Source: an uncultured Flavobacteriales bacterium (lineage in GTDB: Bacteria > Bacteroidota > Bacteroidia > Flavobacteriales_D > Crocinitomicaceae). From it: DNA of 44,128 nt. A program made the translations under genes and the position numbers. The notes beneath the pieces are model-generated. The model searched no databases. It saw only the letters and a list, made by a program, of their open reading frames with translations, and was not told where the DNA came from. How positions within the stretch are numbered: position 1 is the stretch's first letter; each line of letters opens with the position of its first letter. Below, piece after piece: positions 1-12,840 of this stretch. The DNA is taken from NCBI GenBank assembly GCA_913046365.1, contig CAJWRM010000021.1, positions 1-44,128 on the forward strand, in the 5' to 3' direction.

Positions 1-52
1 TTAAATGTAGAAGAAAACCTAGAAACTTTAGAAAAATATCCTGTCCTTCTTT

Positions 53-1771
53 TTAATACATAAAAAAGACAGGTAAGATATTGACACTCTTTTCGAAATA
101 AGGACTGCTCTTATATATAAAATAAAGCTGAGCCCATTCAGATTCACGAAAATCTTTGTCCGCATTCATTTTGCTTTCATATGCAGTTCTTAATTCAGTA
201 TCATTATTTAATATTTCTTCAATCTTGTCAATAAATACATAGCTCGAAAAGTATTCCTTTTGCTGAAGATAGCTATCGAAAAAATTCCAGGTGAAATATG
301 AATCCTCAGACTCAGGCTGCAATACGGAATGGATAAAAGATGCTCTTTCTTGATTTGAAGAAATTCTTACATCTCCTGCTTTTAATGCAACTGCTCTTTC
401 ACCGAGACTGACCTGCACATTATTTAATTTAAAATGGCCTTCATAAGGACGCTTGGAAACTTGATAATCAACCACTTCAAAAAAACCGAGTTGCATTATA
501 GTATCATTTTTAAGCTTATTCATTATGACCTTATTGGCCTTCAACCTTTTAATTACATCCTTCTCCTGACGACCAACAAAGTAATATTTAGGCACCCGGA
601 CTTCATTCTTAGGTTCGAAACTTTTGTAATGCGCAATATTTCGTTCATAAGGAGCTAGCGTATCATATTTGAGTCTCTCTAATCCTGTTATTTGATGTTT
701 TGGAAAAGAATGCTCATAACCCTTGAATAATATGGAGTCGCACAATCCGTCAGATTCATAACCAAAATGGAAAGTTTTAGACTCAGCAATCGACTTACGC
801 GCCTTTAATCTAGATTTTTCAATGAGCTTTTTGTGCTGAGTAGTCCAAGAAATAAGCGATTTCATAAAGGCTAATGTGGCCTGTACTCTTTGCGGAAAGG
901 GCTTGAGCATATGGGTTTCGACTGTAAAGCTTAAGGATTGAAAAAGAGCAGTGTAGCCCATAGAATAACGCGGTAGGTCATTGAATGCGACAATTCCTTC
1001 TCCAGGTGTTTGGCCCTTTAAGTCAACATATGGAAAGAGGTCAATACCATAGTTCGCATATAGGTCACTTTTTAAGCTTGGTAAAAGACTTTCATGCGTA
1101 ATTTTTTTTATTGCAGCAGGCATTCGATCACTTAAAGACGAAATGTATGTCAAGGTGTATTGATAGTCTGCCCCATTAGATACATGATTGTCTACAAATA
1201 CATCTGGGTCAAGACCATGAAAAATCTTAGAAAACACGAAAGCATTCTTAGAATCCATTTTTATAAAGTCTCGATTCAAATCTAAGTTTTGCGCATTCCC
1301 TCTAAAACCATATTCGTTGGGACCATTCTGATTTGCTCGACTATTAGAAGATCGATTAATCATCCCTCCGACATTATATGAGGGAATAAACGCGACTACC
1401 GGCATCTCTGAAGAAAACTCCTGGCCGACAATTAGTTCATCAAGCCAAATAAGACAAGCATTGATCCCATCGGGTTCTCCAGGGTGAATTGCATTATTGA
1501 ATAGTATTGTCGTTTCTTTTCTTGCTTTTTTAAAGGTTTCCAGTGAATCTTTAGCACCATTTACAATACATATATATATTGGGAGCCCGTAATCAGACTT
1601 TCCCATATTGTAAAGTTCGACTTTCTCACTCATCTTTGATAATTCAATGAGATGTTCAGATAGCTCGTAATACGTTGGAGTCGTATTTCCCTTCCATTTG
1701 TTTTGAGCAATGATATTGTTACCTAAAAATAGTATACAAATGATTGCTCCGATTTTAAATAGATATTTCAT
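53..1771 (-). CDS. Secreted M14-family zinc carboxypeptidase
   Basis: This 572-residue protein is predicted to be an exported metallopeptidase that removes C-terminal residues from peptides or opens peptidoglycan-type peptides. A signal peptide spans about residues 1-22 (hydrophobic stretch ending IIA-Q). The M14 zinc site is visible: HPGE with H96 and E99, then H196 in VDNHVSNG. LNRDF (N166, R167) matches the substrate-carboxylate-binding Asn-Arg pair, and FTVETH with E285 is the likely catalytic glutamate. The catalytic domain covers about residues 30-310. The C-terminal 250 residues have no domain I recognise and do not look like a T9SS sorting domain, so the enzyme is probably periplasmic. 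The start lies 3 nt after the stop of the upstream PETase-like gene, which implies one transcript. The exact substrate cannot be told. The first 52 bases of the window, beyond its stop, hold nothing recognisable. Confidence 0.88.
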   Translation of the reverse strand: MKYLFKIGAIICILFLGNNIIAQNKWKGNTTPTYYELSEHLIELSKMSEKVELYNMGKSDYGLPIYICIVNGAKDSLETFKKARKETTILFNNAIHPGEPDGINACLIWLDELIVGQEFSSEMPVVAFIPSYNVGGMINRSSNSRANQNGPNEYGFRGNAQNLDLNRDFIKMDSKNAFVFSKIFHGLDPDVFVDNHVSNGADYQYTLTYISSLSDRMPAAIKKITHESLLPSLKSDLYANYGIDLFPYVDLKGQTPGEGIVAFNDLPRYSMGYTALFQSLSFTVETHMLKPFPQRVQATLAFMKSLISWTTQHKKLIEKSRLKARKSIAESKTFHFGYESDGLCDSILFKGYEHSFPKHQITGLERLKYDTLAPYERNIAHYKSFEPKNEVRVPKYYFVGRQEKDVIKRLKANKVIMNKLKNDTIMQLGFFEVVDYQVSKRPYEGHFKLNNVQVSLGERAVALKAGDVRISSNQERASFIHSVLQPESEDSYFTWNFFDSYLQQKEYFSSYVFIDKIEEILNNDTELRTAYESKMNADKDFRESEWAQLYFIYKSSPYFEKSVNILPVFFMY

Positions 1772-1774
1772 CGC

Positions 1775-2881
1775 TTATATTTTGACAAATCTGTAGTTAA
1801 GATTACCCACCCTTAATGAGTAAGGCCCATACTGGAGACCCTCAATCTCTATTTTATTTAACTGCTTTGATACAACGCCACCTTGTACACATTTCCCTAA
1901 TGCATCGTAGACTTTGTACTCAACATCGTCTACCTCAATCAAATTGAGAAAAATACTTCCGTTTGCTGGGTTAGGATATAGCAGTAAGATTTCTTCATCA
2001 TAAGGTGAAAATAGCTCAAGTGATTCACAGTCAATATTTGTCTCATAAGCAAATGAATTCGATGGGTTATCGAGTAAAAAATCACAATAACAAGGGTCAG
2101 CTAAAAGATAAGTTTTTAGCCAAGAAAGCGCATAAATACCTGTCTCTCCTCCAGCCATATTTGGTTCATTTGCTGCACCATGACCCCCATCTTCAATTTC
2201 AAAATAAAGCTTATCCGTATCATTTGGTGTATTAGTATAATGCATATAACCATATTCAGATGGGCTAGCGATATCATCATTCTGGCCCGTAAAAATAAGA
2301 ACCGGAACATCATGAATTAAATCAGAAGCATCAAAATCATTCAAGTCTAACCAAGGACATAATCCAACAACCGCTTTTAATGAAGGATCTATTGATGCAG
2401 CCAATTGTGCTCCACCGCCGCCCATGGACCATCCAGAAACAGCAAAATTGTTGACATTGATCTTTCCATTTAAAGGAGATCCTTCACGAGTATTCTCCGA
2501 CTTAATGGTTTCAATGGCATCCAACAGCGCAACGGCACGCATTGCTGGCCAATCAGCACAGGGATCATTTGTTCCCAAAGTGATAGAAACAATACCATGA
2601 GACGCATAAAAAGGACCCCAATTTTGAATATCCGTTTCTACACCACAATATCCCGGAACAATGGCTATACCTGAATATGGAGGTACACCATTATTCGGAT
2701 AATATATCGTTGCCCCTTCATAATCAGGGCCGTTTCTAATATCATCAACACCTTCTACCAGAATAGAAACAGAAAATGGACCAGGATTCGTTATAGAAGC
2801 CAAGGTGACATCTTCACATTGAGCATAGCAATTCGACAAGAGTATAGAGAGGGAAATAGAAACGAACAAAAATCTAAACAA
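1775..2881 (-). CDS. PETase/cutinase-like polyester hydrolase with T9SS sorting domain
   Basis: This 368-residue protein is a secreted alpha/beta hydrolase that closely resembles the bacterial cutinase/PET-hydrolase family. From recall of Ideonella PETase, these blocks match: AIVPGY (oxyanion Tyr, here Y78), [15 protein letters not shown] (nucleophile S152, flanked by W151 and M153), PSLKA, CPW (W177), ND.IA (D202) and GGH (H234). A signal peptide covers residues 1-20 (NCYA-Q). The C-terminal cysteine pair near C266/C285 fits the family disulfide, but the second PETase-type disulfide near the active site is absent (G199 and A236 in place of Cys). Residues about 297-368 form a type A T9SS sorting domain (LYPNPANG...YDALGK...YSLRV). 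No in-frame ATG exists at the 5' end: the start must be TTG at 2881 or TTG at 2869. Polyester activity is inferred, and natural substrates may be cutin-like or other esters. Confidence 0.87.
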
Positions 2882-3030
2882 AGTAATTGATTTTAATGAA
2901 CCTCTAAAATACAGAATATTATCTCAGACTTACCATCGAAATATGGACTATATTGACTACATATTTATTAAAATATCACTTTGGGTATTTACTTTTTACG
3001 GGTGTTCGCATAGAGATTTTAGAATGTTTG

Positions 3031-3038
3031 TAAATTTG
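3031..3038 (+). promoter_or_regulatory. TAnnTTTG -7 element before trmD
   Basis: TAAATTTG is an exact match to the Bacteroidota -7 consensus. It ends 3 nt before the GTG at 3042, so transcription probably begins at or next to that start codon. This argues against the upstream ATG codons at 2943 and 3024 as translation starts. I see no clear TTG -33 element at the expected spacing. Confidence 0.55.
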
Positions 3039-3041
3039 CCT

Positions 3042-3719
3042 GTGCGTATTGATATTTTAACCTTACTTCCGGAATTACTTAACGGACCTTTTGCTGCTTC
3101 AATCTTGCATAGAGCACAGGAAAAAGGTCTTGTTGAGATACACATGCATAATATACGTGATTACGCAACAGACAAACATAAAAATGTCGATGACTACCAA
3201 TACGGTGGCGGCGCGGGCATGGTTATGAGCATTGAACCAATAGTGACAATAATTGAAAAGCTTCAAAAAGAAAGAACATACGACGAGGTTATCTATATGA
3301 CACCTGATGGTACTTTATTAGAGCAAAATACCTGCAATGACTTATCCTTGAAAAAAAATCTAATGATTCTTTGTGGCCACTACAAAGGCATAGATGAGCG
3401 TGTTCGAGAACACTTTATCACCAGAGAGATTTCAATAGGCTCATATGTTTTGTCTGGTGGTGAGCTCGCAGCCGCAGTGCTTACAGATACTATTGTCAGA
3501 TTACTACCAGGGGTTCTCAATGATGAGACTTCAGCCCTTACAGACAGTTTTCAAGATAAACTTTTATCACCACCTGTATACACAAGACCTCCCGAGTTTA
3601 GAGGCTGGAAGGTGCCCAAGATTTTGTTGTCAGGAAATTTCCCAGAAATTGAAAAATGGAGAGAAAAAAAAGCGATTGAAAGAACACAAGAAAGACGACC
3701 AGATCTTTTCGATGAATAA
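3042..3719 (+). CDS. trmD: tRNA (guanine-N1-)-methyltransferase TrmD
   Basis: TrmD methylates N1 of G37 in tRNAs read by CNN codons, using S-adenosylmethionine, and prevents +1 frameshifting. The protein shows the family start [13 protein letters not shown], then [24 protein letters not shown] and the deep-trefoil-knot region [14 protein letters not shown]. It ends at about 225 residues, the normal family size. The open frame extends upstream to 2943, but those extra 33 residues are unlike TrmD, and the TAAATTTG element sits just before GTG 3042, so I chose that GTG. The gene stands between the divergent PETase operon and the aminotransferase gene. Confidence 0.93.
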
Positions 3720-9361: not shown

Positions 9362-10411
9362 ATGAAAAACTTATCATCATCCCTTATTTTTAGCCTCGTT
9401 ACATTTTCAATTTTAGGTCAACAAATCAGTCAAATTGGTTCAGACTTTGACAATTGTGGCGGAACACCAGCCTATGGCTTATATGACTATTCTCAATCTG
9501 CAATGCTATATCTAGCCTCTGAGCTTGAGGGAGTTGGAATATCTGCAGGCAACTCGATTACGGCGATTCAATTTCAATTCAATAGCTGGGAGAGCGGCTA
9601 TGAATTAAACAACCAAACCATTAAAATATCTCATGTTACCGAATCTAGTTTGCCGAATCCAGGCTTACCTGATTATAGCTCTTTAACCATATCCAATACC
9701 ACAACGGTCAAGGAAGAATTCGATTTTAGAGGTTTTACAGGGATTACATGGGGACAATTTGACTTCGATACGCCTTTCGTATGGGATGGATCAAGTAATA
9801 TTTTGGTGACCTGGGAAAATAGAGATGGAAGCTGGATTAGTGGTTACGGGTGGCTTGAAGGTCGCGATCTAAGTAACCGTTGTCACGTGTGGTATAAGGA
9901 TGACAATTATCCTGTGGCAAGCTCTAGTGAAGACCGTTACCTCCCAAACATTAAACTCCACACCAGTTTTAATCCGCTTCCTATTACATTGAATTCATTT
10001 ACAGGAGAATTGCTTTCAGGCTTCGGGAATTCAATCCAATTAAATTGGTCAACAGCATCTGAAAAAGATAACGACTATTTCACCCTGTGGAGGTCTTTTG
10101 ACGGACAATCATGGAAAGAAATCACACAATTAACAGGTGCCGGTAATTCAAACGAACTATTAAATTATCAACACATAGATCGAAACATAATTGTACAATC
10201 TATCGAGAAAAACACAATCTATTACAAGCTGTCTCAAACAGATTATGACGGCACAACAGAGTTTTTCCAAATCATCCCAGTTGAAATTCAAGCAGCCAAA
10301 ACCTATGTTGTAAGCAGAACGAATCTTATGGGGCAAGAGGTTGATCAAAATCACAAAGGACTCATTATTGAAACCTGGAACAACGGCCTAACGACAAAAA
10401 TCTACAATTAA
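9362..10411 (+). CDS. Secreted protein with a short T9SS-type C-terminal domain
   Basis: This 349-residue protein has a signal peptide of about 19 residues (SILG-QQ). It continues with a beta-rich region of about residues 25-205 rich in Asn, Ser, Trp and Tyr, with no domain I can name. Next comes a fibronectin-like module (LNSFTGEL...IQLNWSTASEKDNDYFTLWRS, about 213-300) that is common just before T9SS sorting domains. The final segment, NLMGQEVDQNHKGLII...NGLTTKIYN, resembles a C-terminal sorting signal seen in Flavobacteriales. I infer export and surface attachment through the T9SS. The gene is monocistronic, with its own promoter and a strong terminator upstream. Confidence 0.75.
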   Translation: MKNLSSSLIFSLVTFSILGQQISQIGSDFDNCGGTPAYGLYDYSQSAMLYLASELEGVGISAGNSITAIQFQFNSWESGYELNNQTIKISHVTESSLPNPGLPDYSSLTISNTTTVKEEFDFRGFTGITWGQFDFDTPFVWDGSSNILVTWENRDGSWISGYGWLEGRDLSNRCHVWYKDDNYPVASSSEDRYLPNIKLHTSFNPLPITLNSFTGELLSGFGNSIQLNWSTASEKDNDYFTLWRSFDGQSWKEITQLTGAGNSNELLNYQHIDRNIIVQSIEKNTIYYKLSQTDYDGTTEFFQIIPVEIQAAKTYVVSRTNLMGQEVDQNHKGLIIETWNNGLTTKIYN

Positions 10412-12010: not shown

Positions 12011-12018
12011 TATATTTG
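12011..12018 (+). promoter_or_regulatory. TAnnTTTG -7 element before lipoprotein gene
   Basis: TATATTTG ends 3 nt before ATG 12022, another leaderless-type arrangement. It also shows that the TTG at 12016 is promoter, not start codon. Confidence 0.5.
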
Positions 12019-12021
12019 CCT

Positions 12022-12840
12022 ATGAAAATAATCTACTGCTTCTTGTTTTTATGGTTCCTTATGGGTTGTTCAAATGAGGACTCGAGTGGTCCCGCTCAAG
12101 AGTCAGATCTCTTTGAAACCATTAAAAATCAAAATAGCAGAAATAAGACCGGCTATCTACTAGATAGTAGCGCCTTTTATGTTGACTCAATCATTCAAAA
12201 ATATATTCGAGAAACCTTGAACACTGGAGACAAAGAAAATTTTACTTACAATATTCATAAAGCAGCACTGAATCCAGATAACGCAATGGATGCCATTATC
12301 AGCGTAAATAGGTTGGCATACGCAAAACAAACAGCGATTGAGTCAGGCCATGTTACTCAAGCCGAAAAGCTCGCATATATGGGGCCATTTAATGCTTTTA
12401 TATTTTATGATGGACGAAGTAATTCCTTTTCTATACCAGTTCCGGTACCCTCTTCTCCTCTACTCCCACTAGACATAAGTTTCGTTAACATTTCCTCTAA
12501 CCAACACAAGGATCTAATTGTGGATTTTAGAATACGTAACTCGAGCTATAAGGAGGTTTACTTTTTATTTAACAATAAGCCAAGTAAGGTTTTCCAATGG
12601 AAAAACTTTGATGGGCTAGGCACACATGATTCCGAAGCCTACGCCTTTGGGTTTAATCCAGGCAATGGTCCGGTCAGGGATATTATTGTTTACAAGGCAA
12701 AAATCGAGGCACCAAAAGTAGCAATAGATCCCTTTATCTTTAAACCGAAAATTTTAAATTCCCAGGAAGTACAAAAGAAGTTCTTTTATGTGCCCGCACA
12801 AGGTAAATATTTCTCCACTAAAGACGACCCCGAAGGGTAA
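12022..12840 (+). CDS. Uncharacterised lipoprotein
   Basis: This 272-residue protein starts with a lipoprotein signal (FLWFLMGC, lipidated Cys at about 16) followed by an acidic, Ser-rich tether. The body (about residues 35-270) is a mixed alpha/beta sequence with no domain I recognise. An unusual Pro-rich patch, VPVPSSPLLPLDIS, lies near residue 140. Export to the outer membrane is inferred from the lipobox. The last 23 nt overlap the 3' end of the convergent TonB-receptor gene. Function unknown. Confidence 0.8.
   Translation: MKIIYCFLFLWFLMGCSNEDSSGPAQESDLFETIKNQNSRNKTGYLLDSSAFYVDSIIQKYIRETLNTGDKENFTYNIHKAALNPDNAMDAIISVNRLAYAKQTAIESGHVTQAEKLAYMGPFNAFIFYDGRSNSFSIPVPVPSSPLLPLDISFVNISSNQHKDLIVDFRIRNSSYKEVYFLFNNKPSKVFQWKNFDGLGTHDSEAYAFGFNPGNGPVRDIIVYKAKIEAPKVAIDPFIFKPKILNSQEVQKKFFYVPAQGKYFSTKDDPEG

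Follow-up and report, generated by a model that had tools for sequence, protein, structure and literature searches.

A PET27/PET30-type esterase with a type IX sorting domain and a clade-specific, probably disulfide-stapled substrate cleft in a Crocinitomicaceae bacterium

We analysed a stretch of 44,128 nucleotides (the window; contig CAJWRM010000021.1 of assembly GCA_913046365.1) from an uncultured Flavobacteriales bacterium of the Crocinitomicaceae, which carries an esterase related to enzymes that hydrolyse polyethylene terephthalate (PET). A first-pass annotation had placed a PETase-like hydrolase with a type IX secretion system (T9SS) signal at 1775..2881. Its coordinates held; the gene itself sits on the minus strand, the same plus-strand frame being full of stops. 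Y78, C79, C108, W151, S152, M153, C175, W177, G199, D202, H234 and A236 were all found at the protein numbers given there. The features of the gene are:

1775..2881, minus strand: PETase-family (PET27/PET30-type), predicted secreted serine esterase of 368 aa, probable TTG start (open reading frame, Pfam, PDB alignment)
2822..2881, minus strand: putative N-terminal export signal, residues 1-20, putative cleavage before Q21 (by eye; model helix 2-18)
2054..2836, minus strand: PETase catalytic domain, Pfam PF12740 (profile match)
2645..2650, minus strand: codons of Y78 (oxyanion/clamp residue, Y87 of IsPETase) and C79 (T88) (alignment)
2549..2563, minus strand: codons of P107-C108-A109-D110-W111 (alignment)
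2426..2428, minus strand: codon of catalytic S152 (PDB-chain alignment)
2276..2278, minus strand: codon of catalytic D202 (PDB-chain alignment)
2180..2182, minus strand: codon of catalytic H234 (PDB-chain alignment)
1793..1981, minus strand: T9SS C-terminal sorting domain, TIGR04183 and PF18962 (profile matches)

The esterase matched the Pfam PETase family over residues 16-276 (E 1.2e-50; 172.8 bits against a cut-off of 28), Por_Secre_tail over residues 301-365 (E 4.2e-9) and the PET30 chain 7pzj over residues 1-365 (E 2.2e-98), values that exclude chance resemblance. PET30 comes from Kaistella jeonii (PDB 7PZJ) and PET27 from Aequorivita sp. (PMC8767016; all papers cited here are drawn on for the excerpts available). 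S152, H234, D202, Y78, M153 and W177 aligned to their counterparts in the PDB chains, with the GWSMGGGG context and the aromatic clamp, and the triad S152, D202 and H234 was invariant across 68 aligned rows. Identity over the aligned fold was 53% to PET30 and 34% to IsPETase; the predicted fold is that of PET30, and the best 50 fold matches were, judging from their titles, PET hydrolases and cutinases. The profile search, the 7pzj match and the aligned triad thus agree on a PETase-like hydrolase, as first proposed, and the suggested place in a small group of T9SS-bearing Bacteroidota esterases of PET type was borne out, PET30 and PET27 being the closest known members. This is not a new kind of system; it is a relative of the secreted PET-plastic hydrolases whose cleft appears rebuilt.

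The C-terminal sorting domain was confirmed by NCBIfam TIGR04183 (26.9 bits, passing the cut-off of 23) in addition to Por_Secre_tail. We judged the T9SS of the host from SprA and from TIGR04183 matches in the window's assembly (2.44 Mb, 94% complete). SprA scored 2373.5 bits there and matched none of 14 control genomes; TIGR04183 gave 90 matches at E <= 0.001, esterase included, and matched 2/14 controls, one of them over the cut-off. The esterase would be exported to the cell surface or beyond. PETase-family matches in the same genome numbered three, only the window esterase lying over the cut-off (controls: 6/14 matched, 4 over). The sole named relative found in the contig search was Crocinitomicaceae bacterium TMED16, 80% identical; judging from this name and from relatives of Tara origin, P0006 and P0016 among them, the host habitat is probably marine.

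PET27, PET30 and the window esterase share the catalytic domain, the triad, the T9SS sorting domain and a CYC motif. The C203-C239 bridge of IsPETase is absent from both PET30 (G and V) and the window esterase, in which G199 and A236 align with these cysteines as had been noted earlier, so that the esterase falls outside type IIb, to which IsPETase belongs. The single disulfide in the PET30 crystal, C262-C285 (PMC8767016), corresponds to C266 and C285, counted along the 7pzj chain. The clamp reads Y-M-W in the window esterase, F-M-Y in PET30 and F-M-W in PET27, and so departs from Phe-Met-(Trp/Tyr/Ala), a common though not strict trait of the PMC8767016 set, with PET57 excepted. Tyr at this position also occurs in 15/84 other homologues. 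Unlike PET30, which has T, L, Q and H at these places in the alignment, the window esterase has C79, C108, W111 and Y210; it also gains a residue at 107/108, and its loop following W177 is longer. It differs from IsPETase in its T9SS domain and in C, W, Y and G at T88, Q119, S214 and S238. HaloPETase1 (type III, PMC12442448) is similar in being a PET hydrolase with unusually placed disulfides; it differs in their positions (C64-C126 and C273-C276) and in the Thr that replaces clamp residue Y87. PET93 and PET94 (Maribacter, Arenibacter; PMC13188925) are PET-active Bacteroidota enzymes with the same Tyr-Met-Trp motif, but are described as having no porC sorting domain and fall outside the cluster of PET27 and PET30.

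We next consider the cysteines, aligned in the best 120 of 905 matches plus the window protein (121 in total; P0002 is the window's own cluster). Five are family-wide: C22 (118), C175 (119), C264 (121), C266 (120) and C285 (120); of these, the PET30 bridge accounts for C266 and C285 but not for C22, C175 or C264. C79 and C108 were both Cys in 36/36 close relatives (P0001-P0036, the branch) and neither was in 84/85 others; P107 and W111 split in the same way. The 85th, P0037, carries C79, P107, C108 and W111 but was excluded as a probable chimera: by eye, it is close to P0016 in its first half and not in the remainder. The first-pass annotation had regarded C108 and C175 as extra cysteines that could form a different bridge. 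C108 is indeed clade-specific, whereas C175 is not extra, being conserved in 36/36 close relatives and 83/85 others. A C108-C175 bridge was rejected, since C175 is present with or without C108. Among other homologues, P0004 is 82% identical, and P0123 (354 aa), also PETase-like, has two DINxDGxV-type repeats in its tail instead of a T9SS domain, presumably akin to dockerin/EF-hand repeats.

C79, P107, C108 and W111 were found in 13/14 carriers within the genus; the 14th is only a fragment, beginning at residue 118. At the level of the order, 20/399 genomes held a PETase-like gene; 13 lie within the genus, and the 7 outside it are without both cysteines (L118, one of the genes outside, has P107 without the cysteine). 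On a tree of the catalytic domain (129 rows, trait columns removed; P0013, which lacks the N-terminus, and P0037 dropped, and the fragment P0122 not included), the pair requires one change, with a Shimodaira-Hasegawa-like approximate likelihood ratio (SH-aLRT) of 100. The trait is genuine and spans the clade, yet it counts as one evolutionary event. Beyond the branch, the motif-word search for the pair covered only 64 candidates and may have missed distant carriers; in a phylum-wide sample 1/395 genomes, the window's own, matched at E <= 1e-60, which says little about more distant members. Two loci hold further PETase-like genes. L047 (G170:C156:463-1500) is a second such gene, 40% identical; it lacks the Cys pair and contains one in-frame TAA, and the same genome holds a branch member free of internal stops. 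L118 and L124 (G370:C133:585-2539), in another family of the order, are two different adjacent genes, lying on opposite strands and both without the pair.

In the pairwise alignment with IsPETase, Y78 corresponds to Y87, C79 to T88, A109 to L117, W111 to Q119, W177 to W185, G199 to C203, Y210 to S214, G235 to S238 and A236 to C239. Relative to PET30 and IsPETase, the branch loop carries an additional residue, which falls at 107 or 108 depending on the alignment, and C108 immediately precedes the L117 position. A review assigns Y87, L117, Q119, W185 and S214 to subsite I and T88, A89, S93, W159 and S238 to subsite II (PMC11219463; the split is taken from the section title and column order of its table). 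C79 and the C108-W111 region thus fall at these subsites. Nearby, the branch has G80 (36/36), D84 (35/36) and Y210 (36/36), where the 84 others have mainly A/S, S and H, and G or D at 235 in 32/36. An aromatic residue at position 119 also occurs outside the branch (Phe in 50/84, Tyr in 6/84). In DuraPETase, L117F and Q119Y stack on Tyr87 (PMC10546322), which places the subsite I loop in contact with the Y87 loop and makes pairing of C79 with C108 likely. On the aligned sequences, a C79-C108 disulfide is most likely present in the branch, and the cleft appears to have been rebuilt, suggesting a shifted substrate range.

The mechanism that we propose is as follows. Sec would carry the esterase into the periplasm and the type IX system across the outer membrane. 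Given the family membership, the Ser152-His234-Asp202 triad would hydrolyse esters, with the amides of Y78 and M153 as the oxyanion hole, a role assigned from homologues, and the substrate held between Y78, W177, W111 and Y210. A C79-C108 disulfide would staple the oxyanion loop and the subsite I loop together, taking over at another position the role of C203-C239 in IsPETase. A lipid ester or polyester from marine organic matter would probably be the natural substrate, with PET at most a side substrate. The analysis directly supports the family, the predicted fold, the sorting domain, the host T9SS genes, the clade-specific residues and the single origin, and we consider the proposal as a whole, a T9SS-exported PET27/PET30-type serine esterase with a C79-C108 staple acting on natural esters, to be probable. 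The bolder claim, that one Bacteroidota lineage rebuilt the cleft of a T9SS-exported PETase, with C79-C108 linking the loop of the oxyanion residue and subsite II to that of subsite I, and that the enzyme forms a PETase subtype apart, acting on a natural polyester of its own, is put forward tentatively.

Several observations weigh against this interpretation. The NCBIfam BHET (bis(2-hydroxyethyl) terephthalate) hydrolase model NF051441 scored 125.1 bits, under its cut-off of 520. As to a PET-assimilation pathway, a tannase-family MHETase gave no match in the window's genome, a result that carries no weight because the control of that search also matched nowhere; one ring-hydroxylase match lies elsewhere in that genome. 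In a marine survey, PET activity was reported only among enzymes with the M5 motif and in none of the M1-M4 enzymes tested, Flavobacteriales being among the M1-M4 taxa (PMC12224614, within the excerpts available), and the M5 tail motif of that survey, DxDxR(Y)xxFxC, is by eye absent from the esterase. PET30 also lacks it, the 7pzj segment reading NDCYCSVL, and other PET-active enzymes are said to be without M5 (PMC13234336). In the same fashion, 19 positions are clade-specific, and because C79 and C108 trace to one lineage their co-occurrence is no independent support for pairing.

The alternative that fares best is a secreted enzyme for natural lipids, either a lipase or an esterase of small esters, in which the cleft changes tune the enzyme away from polymers and leave no useful polyester activity. 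The inactivity of the tested M1-M4 enzymes on PET fits this reading, as do PET28 and PET29, which have the binding motif of PET27 and no PET activity (PMC8767016), and the branch residues at the subsite positions A89, S93 and S238. However, PET27-PET30 all hydrolysed polycaprolactone, BHET and Impranil, PET activity being confined to PET27 and PET30 (PMC8767016), and the esterase is close to PET30 over the fold. We regard this alternative as a serious one that nonetheless falls somewhat short of even chances. Rather unlikely is a second, in which C79 and C108 form no bond with each other but are free or bind a metal or other ligand, shared descent alone accounting for their retention alongside W111. 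The single origin and the 19 equally clade-specific positions speak for it, against the retention of both cysteines in 36/36 listed members and the contact of the two loops in DuraPETase. Unpaired cysteines are also generally uncommon in exported proteins. An ordinary dienelactone hydrolase of chance resemblance, a label that one source gives to several homologues, is refuted at the level of sequence and fold and scarcely credible: the dienelactone hydrolase profile scored 15 bits, under its cut-off of 21, the PETase profile was far over its own, and the best fold matches were, by their titles, to PET hydrolases and cutinases. Our preferred reading remains an esterase at the cell surface that would act on natural polyesters or on lipid esters and may or may not act on PET.

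Two genes flank the esterase:

53..1771, minus strand: M14-type zinc carboxypeptidase gene, 3 bp past the esterase stop codon (Pfam)
2943..3719, plus strand: trmD, divergent, upstream of the esterase; true start probably downstream of 2943 (Pfam)

The esterase and M14 genes would be co-transcribed. Within the genus, the esterase was detected at E <= 1e-30 in 14/86 genomes, including 7 of the best 50 assemblies, and the M14 gene was detected at E <= 1e-60 in 73/86, including 48 of those 50. M14 adjoins the esterase in 14/14 carriers, and divergent trmD lies on its other side in 12/14, the contig ending in the remaining two. We examined 70 M14 loci (G168, G187 and G200, of the 73 genomes, are not among them). 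Among the 56 non-carriers, 22 have divergent trmD directly beside M14, at 11-86 bp as estimated from alignment ends, 12 have it upstream and codirectional, and 22 are without trmD within the stretch examined. In the 12 (L064, L065, L067, L068, L070-L077), a local rearrangement at the same site, the trmD-M14 distance is 7-11 bp in five loci and ~950-960 bp in seven. In a tree of M14 (69 rows), one branch separates the 14 carriers from all others (support 99/93). The simplest history is a single acquisition between trmD and M14 followed by vertical descent; the alternative is ancient presence with loss elsewhere, the M14 tree being unrooted.

TTG is the first possible start codon of the esterase and stands at the same place in L001 and L035 (apparently one genome), L036 and L037, with no upstream in-frame ATG in the bases shown. 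The database relatives P0003 and P0006 begin at an M two codons further upstream, so that TTG is probable and the exact start not certain. Upstream, on the minus strand at ~2917-2904, lies ATTCTGTATTTTAG, present in L001, L035 and L038 and, by eye, similar in L036, which may be a promoter element; a promoter and terminator scan of 1-3300 was at chance level (14 vs 13.4 and 2 vs 1.7). Elsewhere in the window, two long open reading frames (9362-10411 and 12016-12840, both plus strand) had no Pfam match at E <= 1e-4.

We found no publication on a natural PETase bridge or branch with the C79-C108 placement, in a literature search that was thin in subscription journals, and no paper on engineered T88C or L117C in PETase, searched in two exact spellings only. 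The bridge, if true, would be a natural stiffening of the PETase active site at a place not found tried in engineering. W111 and Y210 are natural aromatics at positions 119 and 214, both of them sites of engineered changes to Tyr: W111 resembles Q119Y of DuraPETase and Y210 resembles S214Y of HotPETase, which itself has Q119K. The esterase is a variant within a known enzyme family, a PET27/PET30-type member whose cleft is clade-specific and probably disulfide-stapled. The genomes point to one acquisition of the esterase beside the M14 peptidase gene, and since the listed branch members diverge from the window esterase by up to ~40%, an old natural ester substrate would fit the branch better than a recent adaptation to plastic.
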